The notes: generated from the sequence alone by a model not told the origin. Positions 9,324 through 12,845 are shown, numbered from the stretch's first letter. The stretch: DNA of 22,249 nt from a virus (IMGVR_UViG_3300045999_003667:1-22249), one strand, 5' to 3'. Program-made: numbers and translations.

Positions 9324-10616
9324 TCACCGACGCCAAGCGTGCGCCACGGGTTGCGGCGGCTGGAGTTGCACGGGCTTCGCAGCCTGCACACGACGCGCGC
9401 CTTCGCAGGCGTAGCGCAGGGCGTCGATGACGTGGTTGTCGCGGTCGTCGAGCACCGGAAGGACGGCGCCCGTCAGCGGGTCGGCCTTGTAGCTGTAGAG
9501 CGTCAGCTCGTCGATGAGGTGCGTGCAGCGCGGGTGCACCACGATGTCGTGGCTCTTCAGCCACTCGACGCCCTCTTCGAGCGAGCGCGGACCCTTCACC
9601 GCTGCCATGATCTTCGGGAAGCCATGCCGCCGCATGTGCGCGATGGTCTCCGGGCGCGCCGAGTCGGCGACGATGGGCCACGTCTCCGAGCCCGGCACCG
9701 TGAGGAAGAGCGCGGGCGTGTCGACGATCTCGACGCCGACGCCGTACGCCTCGTGGTCGACGTAGAGCGTGCGGCCCTCGATGTAGCAGCGCACAAGCAC
9801 CGTCGGATCGACGGCAAAGCCCCAGTCGGCGCCGAAGCGGATGACCGCGTCACGCGGTGCCTCGAACTCCTCGACGCGCCAGTTCTTAAAGACGCGCCGT
9901 TCCGAGTTGCGCAGGTACTCTCCTGCCCAAACGTGGCGGAACTTGTCGGGGTCGCGCTTGCGGTCGTACTCGAGCTCCGCGCGGAGCACTTCGGGGAACC
10001 AGGGGTTCGATTCGTAGTTCACGCCGACGACGACGGCATCGGGCGGCAAGCGCTCGCCGCGAAGGAGCGCGTCCACCGGGTCGGTCGACTGGCTCGGGTT
10101 CCATGTGAACCAAAGCTCGGAGCCAGGCTTGCGGATCGTCGGGCGCAGAAGGTCGAGCGAGCGCTGCGAGAGGCTCTGCGCTTCCTCGACCCATGCGCAG
10201 TCGTAGCCTTCGAGCGACTTGATCGAGTCCGCCGTGTGGTTCTGCATTCCCTGGAAGATGATGCGCCCGTCGCCCTTGCGTGACTTGATGACGGCCTCCT
10301 GAACCTCGAAGTACGCGCCGACGCCGAGCGCTTCGATCTTCGCTTCGATGAGGCGCTTGACCGACTGGCTCAGGCTCTTCTGCACTTCGCGCACGCAGAC
10401 CGTCGACCGGTTCGGGTCGAGCACGTGCGCCTCGACGAGCATCTCAGCGAAGGCGTGCGACTTGCCCGAGCCTCGCCCGCCCCAGGCGCCTTTATAACGC
10501 GCCGGAGCGAGGAGGGGCATGAACCATCGCGGCGTCTCGATGCGGAGCGTTTTAGAGGCATCCTGGCGCGAGGAACGGGCATCCTTGCGGCTGGTCGCTT
10601 TACTCGCCGTCGCCAC
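9324..10616 (-). CDS. Terminase large subunit (packaging ATPase/nuclease), 430 aa
   Basis: It drives DNA translocation into the procapsid and cuts concatemers. The start is GTG 10616-10614, preceded by AAGGTG at moderate spacing, and it overlaps the small terminase by 17 bases. The ATPase motor shows Walker A GGRGSGKS (about residues 47-54) and a Walker B-like CAWVEEAQSL followed by the coupling segment. The nuclease domain has GADWGFAVDPTVL (about 248-260), a second acidic IVADSARPE stretch, and a C-terminal RDNHVIDALRYACE with the last metal-binding aspartate. This arrangement is that of the Terminase_3/PBSX-type RNase H-like large subunits. The gene order small terminase, large terminase, portal is standard. 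Confidence 0.93.
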   Translation of the reverse strand: MATASKATSRKDARSSRQDASKTLRIETPRWFMPLLAPARYKGAWGGRGSGKSHAFAEMLVEAHVLDPNRSTVCVREVQKSLSQSVKRLIEAKIEALGVGAYFEVQEAVIKSRKGDGRIIFQGMQNHTADSIKSLEGYDCAWVEEAQSLSQRSLDLLRPTIRKPGSELWFTWNPSQSTDPVDALLRGERLPPDAVVVGVNYESNPWFPEVLRAELEYDRKRDPDKFRHVWAGEYLRNSERRVFKNWRVEEFEAPRDAVIRFGADWGFAVDPTVLVRCYIEGRTLYVDHEAYGVGVEIVDTPALFLTVPGSETWPIVADSARPETIAHMRRHGFPKIMAAVKGPRSLEEGVEWLKSHDIVVHPRCTHLIDELTLYSYKADPLTGAVLPVLDDRDNHVIDALRYACEGARRVQAAKPVQLQPPQPVAHAWRR

Positions 10617-10983
10617 GCTTCACCTTGTCGACGATGACTCGCTCGATGCGTGCGAGCTCGATGGGCGCTCCGTCCGCGCCGGTGATCTCGTGCCGCTCCG
10701 TCTCGCGCCAGCGCGCCTGCGTCTTCAGGAAGAAGATGGCCGAAGTCGTGTCGCCGCTCAGCGCTTTCTGGATGAGGCCCTGAGCGACCTTCGCGACGAC
10801 CTTGCTTTTGCCGCGTTTATAACGTTCGGCAATGTCTGCGTCGCGCTCCATCATGGCGAAAAACGTCGTTCGCCCGATGCCGAAGTAATCGGCGACCTGC
10901 TCGGCGGAAAGGAACGCTGCAAGCGTCTCGACCTCGGCGCGCTGCTTTTCGGTGAGCACCTTCGGTTTGCGTCCTGCTTTCAT
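10600..10983 (-). CDS. Terminase small subunit, 127 aa
   Basis: Recognises the packaging site and loads the large subunit. The N-terminus MKAGRKPKVLTEKQRAEVETL... leads into a helix-turn-helix: AAFLSAEQVADYFGIGRTTFFAMMERDADIAERYKRGK (about residues 23-59, cited in part as SAEQVADYFGIGRTTFFAMM). AQGLIQKALSGDTTSAIFFLKT (about 88-104) and ARWRETER complete the pattern familiar from phage small terminases, where 'G-TTA-IFFLK-R-GW' follows the HTH. It lies directly before the large subunit with a 17-base overlap, and its ATG forms an ATGA overlap with the stop of the glycosyltransferase gene. Confidence 0.88.
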   Translation of the reverse strand: MKAGRKPKVLTEKQRAEVETLAAFLSAEQVADYFGIGRTTFFAMMERDADIAERYKRGKSKVVAKVAQGLIQKALSGDTTSAIFFLKTQARWRETERHEITGADGAPIELARIERVIVDKVKRGDGE

Positions 10984-11855
10984 GCTGTCCTCGGCTGTTT
11001 GCGGACTGTCTCGCGCATGATCTTCGGCGAGACGTTGTGCCAGTTGATCTTATGGTGCAAGCGGTAGCGCCCTCCTCGCGGGTCGCCCATCTCTCCCACC
11101 TTGACGCAGCTCGGCGCGTACATGACCGAATAGAAGCTCTTCACGTAGGTGCCGCTTTCCAAGTACATTTCTGTCATTCCGCCCGCGTTCGACTGCGTTT
11201 GCATTTGCACGAGCTGCGCCTGAATCACGGTTAAGAACAGCGCTCCGCGCCTGCCTGCCGAAGTGTAGGTGTTCACGTCTTCGTTCACTCGGCCAACGAA
11301 CTCGAACGGCCTGTCAGTCGAGCAAATGAAAGAGTTCATCGCTTTGCGCCGAAGCGAAGGAGTGTGCTGGCTGTTGTCGCCCCCGATGTGATCGCCGCCT
11401 TGGCTCATGGCGACCGACTGGGCGCCGCTCTTCTCGAAGAACTCCACGAGCGATGCGAAAACTTCGTCCATCGTCGTCTTCACACGCGCCCAGACGTACT
11501 CCAGCGCGCTGCTGTGCCTGATGGCAAACGACGTGTAGTCGTCATCGAGCTGGATGAAGTACTTGCACCCGACTTGCTTCGCGAGGTCGAAGCAGGCGTT
11601 TCGCGCGTAGAAGATTGCACGCCGGTCGTTGAAGTTATCGCCTTCGTCGAACCGCTTTGCGATGTCAGACTTCGAGAACGTGAGCACGGCGTCACCGAAT
11701 CGCTTCCTGTACTCGCCTCCGGTCTTGTCCTCGTCGTCGATGACGATGAACACCTTCCCAGTGTAGCCTGCTTTTCGCAACGTATCGTAGGTATGCACCC
11801 GGTCTGGGCGACCGTGCGTGAGGATGAACGCGCAGAAGTCAGGAGGCATCGCCAT
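10980..11855 (-). CDS. Predicted DNA-base glycosyltransferase, TET-associated (TAGT) type, 291 aa
   Basis: Expected role: transfer of a sugar to a modified base in phage DNA. The protein begins like a GT-A nucleotide-sugar transferase: FILTHGRPDRV (about residues 10-20), FIVIDDEDKTG (36-46), then an invariant-looking acidic triad LDDD (103-106) typical of metal/nucleotide-sugar binding. Later motifs are GGDHIGGD (153-160), NSFICSTDRPF, GRVNEDVN (188-195), GGMTEMY, GTYVKSFYSVM, and a C-terminal LHH...INW...PKI block (266-279). Together these match what I recall of the TAGT family, described computationally beside TET/JBP oxygenases in phages and related to the GREB1 end domain. The start ATG 11855 has AGAGGG five bases upstream. 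It overlaps the ParB-like gene by 17 bases and the small terminase by ATGA. No oxygenase is visible nearby. Acceptor base and sugar are unknown. Confidence 0.75.
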   Translation of the reverse strand: MAMPPDFCAFILTHGRPDRVHTYDTLRKAGYTGKVFIVIDDEDKTGGEYRKRFGDAVLTFSKSDIAKRFDEGDNFNDRRAIFYARNACFDLAKQVGCKYFIQLDDDYTSFAIRHSSALEYVWARVKTTMDEVFASLVEFFEKSGAQSVAMSQGGDHIGGDNSQHTPSLRRKAMNSFICSTDRPFEFVGRVNEDVNTYTSAGRRGALFLTVIQAQLVQMQTQSNAGGMTEMYLESGTYVKSFYSVMYAPSCVKVGEMGDPRGGRYRLHHKINWHNVSPKIMRETVRKQPRTA

Positions 11856-12672
11856 TCCAGCCCTCTGCGTCTGCGAGCTTTCCGAGTCGTTCGGTCAGGT
11901 GCACGAATCCGTTTTCGATCGCCTTGTCAAAGTCGATGATGACCAGCGCGGAGCGCTCGAACAGGCCCTGCGTCTTCTCATCGGCGTGAGCGTAGAACTC
12001 GGCGATGTTGCGGAAGTTGAAAACCGTGTGCCTCTCGGCTGCGAGGCGCAGGAACGCCGAAACGTCTGGCGGCAACTTCGCCGCGTCGATTTCGCGCACG
12101 AGTTCCTTCGCCTTCGAGTTGTCAAACAGCTCCTCGACCTTTGGGCGATCGCCCTTCGGCTCGTAGATTGGAGCCTCGATCTTCTTCGTGTACGTCTCGC
12201 CGTCGAGTTCTTTTGCCTCTCCGGCCTCTGACGTTGCGCCGCTTTGCTCGTCGATGCTCTTGATCTCTTCTTCGCCGAACCCCGTCAAGTCAAGGTCGAA
12301 CCCAAGCTCGCCAAGCTCGCCGAGTTCGAGCGAGAGCATCTCGGCATCCCATCCGGCGTTCAGGGCCAGCTTGTTGTCGGCGATGACGTAGGCCCTTCGC
12401 TTCGCGTCGGACCAGCCACGAGCGACGACGACGGGCACCTCGACCATGCCGAGCTGGCGCGCGGCGAGCACGCGACCGTGCCCCGCGATGATGCCGCCGT
12501 CTTCGTCGACGAGCACCGGCGTCGTCCAGCCCCACTCGCGAATCGACGCCGCGAGCTGCGCCACCTGCTCGTCGGAGTGCGTGCGGGAGTTGCGCGCGTA
12601 CGGCGTAAGACGCTCAATAGCCCATTTCTCTACGTTATCCGCTGGGTTACTTTTCCCTACAGCTGCCTTCAT
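11839..12672 (-). CDS. ParB/Srx-domain protein with phage-specific C-terminal domain, 277 aa
   Basis: The N-terminal half is a ParB/sulfiredoxin-like domain (about residues 14-95). It has IERLTPYARNSRTHSDEQVAQ (cited in part), SIREWGWTTPVLVDEDGGIIAGHGR with the GxxAGHGR box, and RRAYVIADNKLALNAGWD. Such domains are common beside phage methylases and base-modification enzymes and may bind DNA or have NTP-dependent activity. An acidic, low-complexity linker (about 110-165) follows, then a C-terminal domain with PIYEPKGDRP, RHTVFNFRNIAEFYAHAD, ALVIIDFDKAIENGFVHL, which I remember from phage ParB-like proteins. ATG 12672 has GGAAGG ten bases upstream. An alternative ATG at 12690 lacks a Shine-Dalgarno sequence. 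It overlaps the TAGT gene by 17 bases, suggesting a joint function. Confidence 0.8.
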   Translation of the reverse strand: MKAAVGKSNPADNVEKWAIERLTPYARNSRTHSDEQVAQLAASIREWGWTTPVLVDEDGGIIAGHGRVLAARQLGMVEVPVVVARGWSDAKRRAYVIADNKLALNAGWDAEMLSLELGELGELGFDLDLTGFGEEEIKSIDEQSGATSEAGEAKELDGETYTKKIEAPIYEPKGDRPKVEELFDNSKAKELVREIDAAKLPPDVSAFLRLAAERHTVFNFRNIAEFYAHADEKTQGLFERSALVIIDFDKAIENGFVHLTERLGKLADAEGWNGDAS

Positions 12673-12736
12673 TTTCTGTCTGCCTTCCATGCTGCGTCAA
12701 AACTCGTAGCAGGTATCCGTATCGCCCGCATCTCGA

Positions 12737-12845
12737 CGTAACGGCGTAACCCCTTCTAAAGAAGGGGGTTACGTTACGTTACGCCATTCGATGCCTTGCC
12801 AACGTAACGAATTACCTGAAAGTTACGTTCCGTTACCATCGTTAC
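12737..12845. repeat. Cluster of CGTAAC/GTTACG motifs with a hairpin (iteron-like)
   Basis: I count nine copies of CGTAAC or its complement GTTACG in about 110 bases: 12737-12743, 12745-12750, three overlapping ones at 12768-12783 (a five-base tandem), 12803-12809, 12822-12827, and the tandem 9-mer CGTTACCAT at 12831-12839 and 12840-12848. The inner ones form an inverted repeat around TAAA (12754-12759 region), CGTAACCCC-TTC / GAA-GGGGGTTACG, with one G bulged. There is no T-run, so it is a poor terminator. It fills the gap between the primase-helicase stop and the ParB-like gene. It could be an origin, or an operator bound by the HTH or ParB-like protein. Confidence 0.7.

Follow-up and report, generated by a model that had tools for sequence, protein, structure and literature searches.

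To our knowledge, every DNA glycosyltransferase characterized biochemically transfers sugar to a hydroxyl that was placed on the base beforehand. The locus described here raises the question of what a transferase of the TAGT family does in a stretch of phage DNA in which no gene for making such a hydroxyl is recognized. Our answer, to which we assign a probability of roughly 0.6, is that it belongs to a widespread phage cassette for glycosylating DNA, the presumed substrate, with no TET/JBP oxygenase involved.

The window, by which we mean the whole stretch of 22,249 bases that was analyzed, is an IMG/VR virus record of a P22-like phage with genes for P22-type portal, scaffold, coat, and tail accessory proteins. 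Read along the minus strand, a primase-polymerase/helicase gene (14731-12848) is followed by ParB, TAGT, the small and large terminase subunits (TerS and TerL), and then portal, scaffold, and coat. The features on which the argument turns are these:

11839..12690, minus strand: ParB/Srx plus C130 gene, 283 residues (ParB_N, E=6.7e-07; PHROG 620, E=2.8e-63)
12382..12633, minus strand: ParB/Srx N-terminal domain, residues 20-103, an exchangeable module (identity to ParB-methylase proteins; profile match to ParB/Noc/Srx structures)
11842..12240, minus strand: C130 domain, residues 151-283, conserved core about 167-268 (adjacent to TAGT; no PDB fold match)
10980..11855, minus strand: TAGT glycosyltransferase gene, ATG start, 291 residues, predicted GT-A fold (PF20691, PHROG 842, AlphaFold2, Foldseek, dN/dS)
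11538..11546, minus strand: codons of D104-D105-D106, a DxD-type metal and sugar-nucleotide motif (D105 and D106 invariant, D104 99% conserved in 111 homologues)
11052..11057, minus strand: codons of H267-H268 near the TAGT C-terminus (96% and 95% conserved in 111 homologues)
10600..10983, minus strand: small terminase subunit, 127 residues (PHROG 309, E=2e-21)
9324..10616, minus strand: large terminase subunit, 430 residues (Terminase_3, E=2.4e-32)

Overlap of the TAGT gene with both of its neighbors had been described in a sequence-only reading of this DNA; it measures 17 nt with ParB (11839-11855) and 4 nt with TerS (10980-10983), and TerS overlaps TerL by 17 nt (10600-10616). An in-frame ATG at 12672, 18 nt downstream, is an equally possible start for the ParB gene and would yield 277 residues. 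Between the primase-helicase and ParB genes, positions 12735-12845 contain repeated GTAAC/GTTAC units and a hairpin (CGTAACCCC...GGGGTTACG); this array is a candidate replication origin or operator. Two relatives (L005 and L007) keep the layout of the array with GGTACCT as the unit and a hairpin stem altered on both sides, differences from the window that represent concerted turnover. The array is not favored as a binding site for ParB, because the unit changes while the ParB core stays nearly identical.

The 291-residue protein is a constrained GT-A transferase and is apparently intact, and its catalytic activity is predicted from sequence and model. It matches the Pfam TAGT family PF20691 over profile positions 4-205 of 205 (E=1.8e-34; 119.9 bits, cut-off 27.5) and PHROG 842 with E=6.4e-77, which bears out the family that had been proposed from motifs. 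No match was obtained when the TAGT profile was compared with PDB sequences; the AlphaFold2 model (pLDDT 93, pTM 0.90) has GT-A enzymes as its top PDB matches in Foldseek (E ~1e-5, probability 1.00, TM ~0.4), in agreement with the anticipated fold. The three motifs noted in the sequence-only reading, HGRPD with R16, DDD at 104-106, and the late HH at 267-268, are real, each being conserved in at least 95% of 111 diverse homologues. Invariant or nearly invariant positions in the same alignment comprise R16, D104-D105-D106, Q152, D155, K171, M173-N174, D193, G226, Y231, K239, and H267-H268. Comparison with four relatives gives a dN/dS of about 0.09-0.18, that is, purifying selection.

The partner of this transferase had been taken to be ParB. 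The key piece that was overlooked is the C-terminal part (about 115 residues) of the "ParB" protein, an orphan helical domain here called C130. It has no match in Pfam or NCBIfam, methylases included, and no fold match in the PDB; its clear structural matches among viral proteins are confined to relatives that are 46-50% identical. In Vibrio jumbo phages, C130 is encoded by a separate gene (139 residues) just upstream of TAGT.

The linkage of C130 to TAGT is nearly absolute in viral and bacterial loci, counts of which include related phages (145 C130 loci are left after reduction to 80% identity). About 300 viral loci contain 285 TAGT genes with enough flanking sequence to be tested; C130 directly adjoins TAGT in 280 of these and lies within 3 kb in the remaining five. 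ParB occupies the same frame as C130 in 239 of the 280 pairs and is absent from 41, and the order of the pair is reversed in two loci (L095 and L096). No locus has C130 without TAGT, including 80 loci that were retrieved by C130 itself, and all 28 records with C130 in the phage collection also carry TAGT. The same holds in bacterial genomes (Bacteroides, Veillonella, Blautia, Desulfovibrio, Pantoea, and others), where C130 is next to or near TAGT in 29/29 testable loci, the separation being ~0.8 kb in one of them (L334). Across 111 nonredundant ParB-fused loci, pairwise identities of C130 follow those of TAGT closely (rho 0.85), and those of the ParB domain far less (rho 0.24). Adjacency and this difference in correlation indicate that C130 and TAGT form the unit of inheritance, within which ParB is swapped; ParB/Srx is an exchangeable add-on. 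In several loci (L154, L118, L125, L148, L159, L327, L328, and L332) TAGT genes stand in tandem, accompanied by one or two genes for C130, an arrangement that, for example in L327, L328, L332, and L154, suggests stepwise addition of two sugars.

Nor is the composition uncommon, as had been supposed, since the cassette is found in hundreds of phages and prophages. Its carriers are phages of bacteria and archaea, and in Rac-type phages and prophages of Escherichia coli it lies between trkG and terminase. At least 80% of the Rac-type ParB-C130-TAGT-TerS-TerL stretch is present in 764 of 5,426 complete E. coli genomes (~14%), some copies being annotated as "GREB1-related protein." K-12 MG1655 retains only the 87-codon ynaK in the cryptic Rac prophage (L310:4378-4641), followed by ydaY, and ynaK is a remnant of the ParB half of the cassette. 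This distribution, together with the K-12 remnant, makes the question testable in laboratory strains.

Long records with the cassette, searched for genes that could make the acceptor, numbered 95 (two sets of 46 and 49, many of them related prophages). TET/JBP was found in none of them by a search that detected it in mycobacteriophages Nigel and Zemanar (E ~5e-8); a C5-methylase occurs in 3/95 and a thymidylate-synthase-family gene (PF00303, above the cut-off) in 2/95, namely a Vibrio jumbo phage and record G058. Profiles of the T4 alpha- and beta-glucosyltransferases (alpha-GT, PF11440; beta-GT, PF09198) each matched 0/45 cassette records, with T4 and T6 positive as expected. For the window phage, whose genome is incomplete, the search covered the window and a 33,362-base contig (L342) that shares 20.4 kb with it at 99.93% identity. 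Neither that contig nor the Pfam-scanned genes of the window include a TET, C5-methylase, or thymidylate-synthase-family gene, in line with the absence of an oxygenase or methylase noted there before. The contig does encode a DPPY-type N6/N4 DNA methylase of 303 residues (L342:1247-2158), which lies beyond the window at a distance of ~11 kb from the cassette. A TET or methylase partner outside the window was rejected on the basis of the contig, which adds only this methylase, an enzyme that makes no hydroxyl, and of the 95 long records, in which such genes are absent or rare; for this phage itself, the missing part of the genome may still hold a partner gene.

The sequence-only reading had left two possibilities, a partner elsewhere in the genome or an acceptor prepared differently. 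Because the absence of TET/JBP is general for the clade, the second fits better. C130 was considered as a metal oxygenase in place of TET. That candidacy is weakened, since its alignment shows no conserved His/Cys metal set and no PDB fold matches; the few polar positions that never vary hold Tyr, Arg, Glu, or Asp. Without a conserved His/Cys set, C130 has no obvious acceptor-making activity.

The published pairing with TET, from which the TAGT family takes its name although it is no element of the profile, was confirmed in actinophages, for a distant clade of TAGT. Actinophages carry ParB and TET genes at the genome left end, and the Mycobacterium phages Baee, Donny, and Serendipitous resemble the window in having a related ParB N-domain and a PF20691 transferase. 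They differ in that TET is present and C130 is not; no C130 could be detected in actinophage TET operons even with filters off, and a profile comparison of C130 with the C-terminus of the TET-linked ParB gave a probability of 0.1%, so the two were not equated. The actinophage TAGT (249 residues) has no BLAST similarity to that of the window and only a weak profile match (73% probability). The same modification slot (L380:1-5652; L370-L372) occurs there in several variants: ParB-TET, ParB-TET-TAGT in the three phages just named, and ParB-TET-aGPT-PPlase2-DNA kinase. In the sister phage Wooper, terminase follows the ParB-TET operon. C130 and TET are mutually exclusive in all records seen, which may reflect lineage rather than function, since the TAGT clades differ too.

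A biochemical precedent is the beta-glucosyl-HMC-alpha-glucosyltransferase of T2/T6, the Tequatrovirus TAGT, which shares with the window protein a PF20691 match, found in T6. The authors of a 2026 study assign it a GT-A fold and report that it adds a second glucose to alpha-glucosyl-hydroxymethylcytosine in DNA (PMC13216743), and the T6-like TAGT locus has been described (PMC13390438). The T-even route glycosylates a pre-made hydroxyl (PMC13390438, PMC13216743). The T2/T6 substrate is DNA in which glucosyl-hydroxymethylcytosine is already present, and T-even phages have the alpha-GT that all 45 cassette records tested lack; no T-even record of the phage collection has C130. In phage T6 (L356, MH550421.1:22359-22970), the six-frame TAGT match contains one TAG stop inside the matched frame. 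The same 2026 study lists solitary TAGT homologues in 288/753 phage genomes and leaves their role open (PMC13216743). Like the window clade, these have TAGT without alpha-GT or beta-GT, and the set probably includes the C130-linked clade; the study does not mention ParB, and its passages covered here name no partner gene. A search of the literature outside the computational base-modification survey for ParB together with DNA glycosyltransferases found nothing, and in the papers covered a modified nucleoside is reported for no phage of the C130-TAGT clade.

The T-even precedent is also the natural model for an alternative in which a conventional but unrecognized or distant enzyme of phage or host, such as a divergent oxygenase, a dNTP hydroxymethylase, or a hydroxylase, supplies the hydroxyl and TAGT acts as it does in T-even phages. 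Such an arrangement would agree with the pre-made hydroxyl on which the characterized DNA glycosyltransferases depend, and a few records do carry a gene of the appropriate kind, as the thymidylate-synthase-family genes of the Vibrio jumbo phage and G058 and the three C5-methylases illustrate. These are rare exceptions in searches whose positive controls worked and in which TET/JBP never appeared. Moreover, clustering of neighboring genes yields no common conserved partner beyond C130, terminase, portal, and replication genes, and we consider a separate hydroxyl-making enzyme unlikely.

An indirect case that the cassette acts on DNA draws on its exchangeable domain. The ParB_N match is above threshold (29.7 bits, cut-off 26.3), and a profile of the N-domain reaches solved ParB/Noc/Srx structures (Noc/ParB, E ~1e-12). 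Pfam does not list a middle helix-turn-helix domain in the window protein, and ParA was not seen among the genes scanned. Over residues 15-115 the identity is 73% to the ParB portion of a record that carries the annotation "adenine specific DNA methyltransferase," and the best matches to phage ParB-DNA methyltransferase fusions (PHROG 498) are 62-73% identical in this N-terminal domain. There the C-terminal half is a methylase, whereas the window has C130 and a separate TAGT instead. A third setting is that of TET. Nocardia phage NTR1 has C130-TAGT directly before terminase, and its ParB N-domain is 55% identical over 143 residues to the TET-associated ParB of mycobacteriophage Nigel, and the match stops just before C130. 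Judged by sequence comparison, ParB N-domains are therefore common to three kinds of DNA-modification operon, the strongest indirect argument for DNA as the substrate.

The same observations bear on a more modest view, in which C130 is a mere folding or docking peptide for TAGT, and ParB, a nuclease or partition gene transcribed along with it, plays no part in modification. The scarcity of invariant polar residues in C130, its lack of a known fold, and the 41 pairs that do without ParB would all suit this view. The in-frame fusion of ParB to C130 in the great majority of pairs is harder to reconcile with it, as is the recurrence of the ParB N-domain in other DNA-modification operons, and on balance we regard it as rather unlikely.

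The genomic surroundings of the cassette fall into two classes. Where ParB is fused, TerL lies within 3.5 kb downstream in 65/78 nonredundant loci with enough flank, and the median gap of 391 nt is the size of a small terminase gene. ParB-less loci have TerL within that distance in only 3/21; assigned by sequence, a DNA sliding clamp is directly downstream in 10/21 and a family A polymerase (PolA) upstream in 11/21. A NAD-dependent nucleotide-sugar epimerase gene (PF01370, E 1e-34 to 1e-56) is in or beside the cassette in ~10 loci, a count made by hand, the neighbor cluster around these genes being contaminated by shadow frames. It overlaps the TAGT stop in seven (L103, L108, L121, L128, L131, L150, and L163), sits between C130 and TAGT in L156, and is upstream in L173. 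A SAM-dependent methyltransferase-like gene, recognized by PF13489 in L173 and by a sequence motif in L243, is found directly upstream of ParB-less C130-TAGT in these two loci (L173:7037-8964; L243:8219-8956), preceded by a GalE-like gene in L173.

Placement directly before terminase and head genes is also compatible with a protein target in the virion or the packaging machinery (terminase, portal, or capsid) instead of DNA, and protein glycosyltransferases such as ColGalT1 are among the Foldseek neighbors of TAGT. We consider this improbable: cassettes without ParB often sit between the genes for DNA polymerase and sliding clamp, away from head genes; the TerL families beside the same TAGT vary so widely that no single protein target is evident; and the family members studied act on DNA (PMC13216743). 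Modification of RNA or of free nucleotides by the pair, or a role in defense or toxin chemistry, is very improbable despite the presence of AvpGT, crystallized with the nucleoside Ara-A, in the Foldseek list and the ability of ParB/Srx domains to bind and hydrolyze NTPs (PMC5512222), since the surrounding genes consistently serve to package or replicate DNA and ParB domains of this type are also found with DNA methylases and TET.

For a DNA-glycosylating cassette, a working model can be outlined. TAGT would be the catalytic GT-A subunit, and its family, its fold, and the associated epimerases suggest that it transfers sugar from a nucleotide sugar, which would come from the host or, in some relatives, be the product of the phage epimerase. 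C130 would be a dedicated, obligate partner subunit that probably binds TAGT and presents or prepares the base. By analogy with the phage ParB-methylase fusions and the ParB-TET operons, ParB/Srx may serve as an exchangeable DNA-recruiting module that brings the complex to DNA in phages expressing the cassette with packaging genes. Translation together with the terminase genes would probably make sugar addition a late step, carried out on DNA that has been replicated but not yet packaged. Relatives that lack ParB and have polymerase and clamp genes next to the cassette may add it during replication, and the proximity of the clamp hints at delivery by the replisome, which has been suggested for the T4 alpha-GT (PMC13216743).

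The acceptor in this model might be a base without any modification, or one that has first been prepared, either by the complex or by an unrecognized enzyme. A tentative but real possibility is that C130 and TAGT constitute a two-subunit enzyme that places sugar directly onto an unmodified DNA base or onto an acceptor of its own making, needs no oxygenase and no pool of modified dNTPs, and is delivered to phage DNA by ParB or by the replisome or packaging machinery. A point against the cassette model as a whole is that known chemistry does not explain such a transfer without a pre-made hydroxyl. Mom of phage Mu is a late, accessory phage DNA modification that needs no pre-made hydroxyl; if direct attack on the base is correct, the cassette would work in a similar manner, with unrelated family, donor, and product.

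What appears to be new here is that C130 and TAGT form an obligate pair, that this pair is free of TET and almost always of other genes for making an acceptor, and that it occurs in two genomic contexts. Known routes of DNA glycosylation need a prior hydroxyl, and in this clade the usual genes for making one are almost always absent, which points either to a new way of preparing or attacking a DNA base or to a familiar family with a changed substrate. The position of the cassette, near terminase when ParB is present and near polymerase and clamp when it is not, suggests how such enzymes reach phage DNA. Sugar-decorated DNA is relevant to escape from restriction, to type IV restriction, and to base calling in nanopore sequencing.
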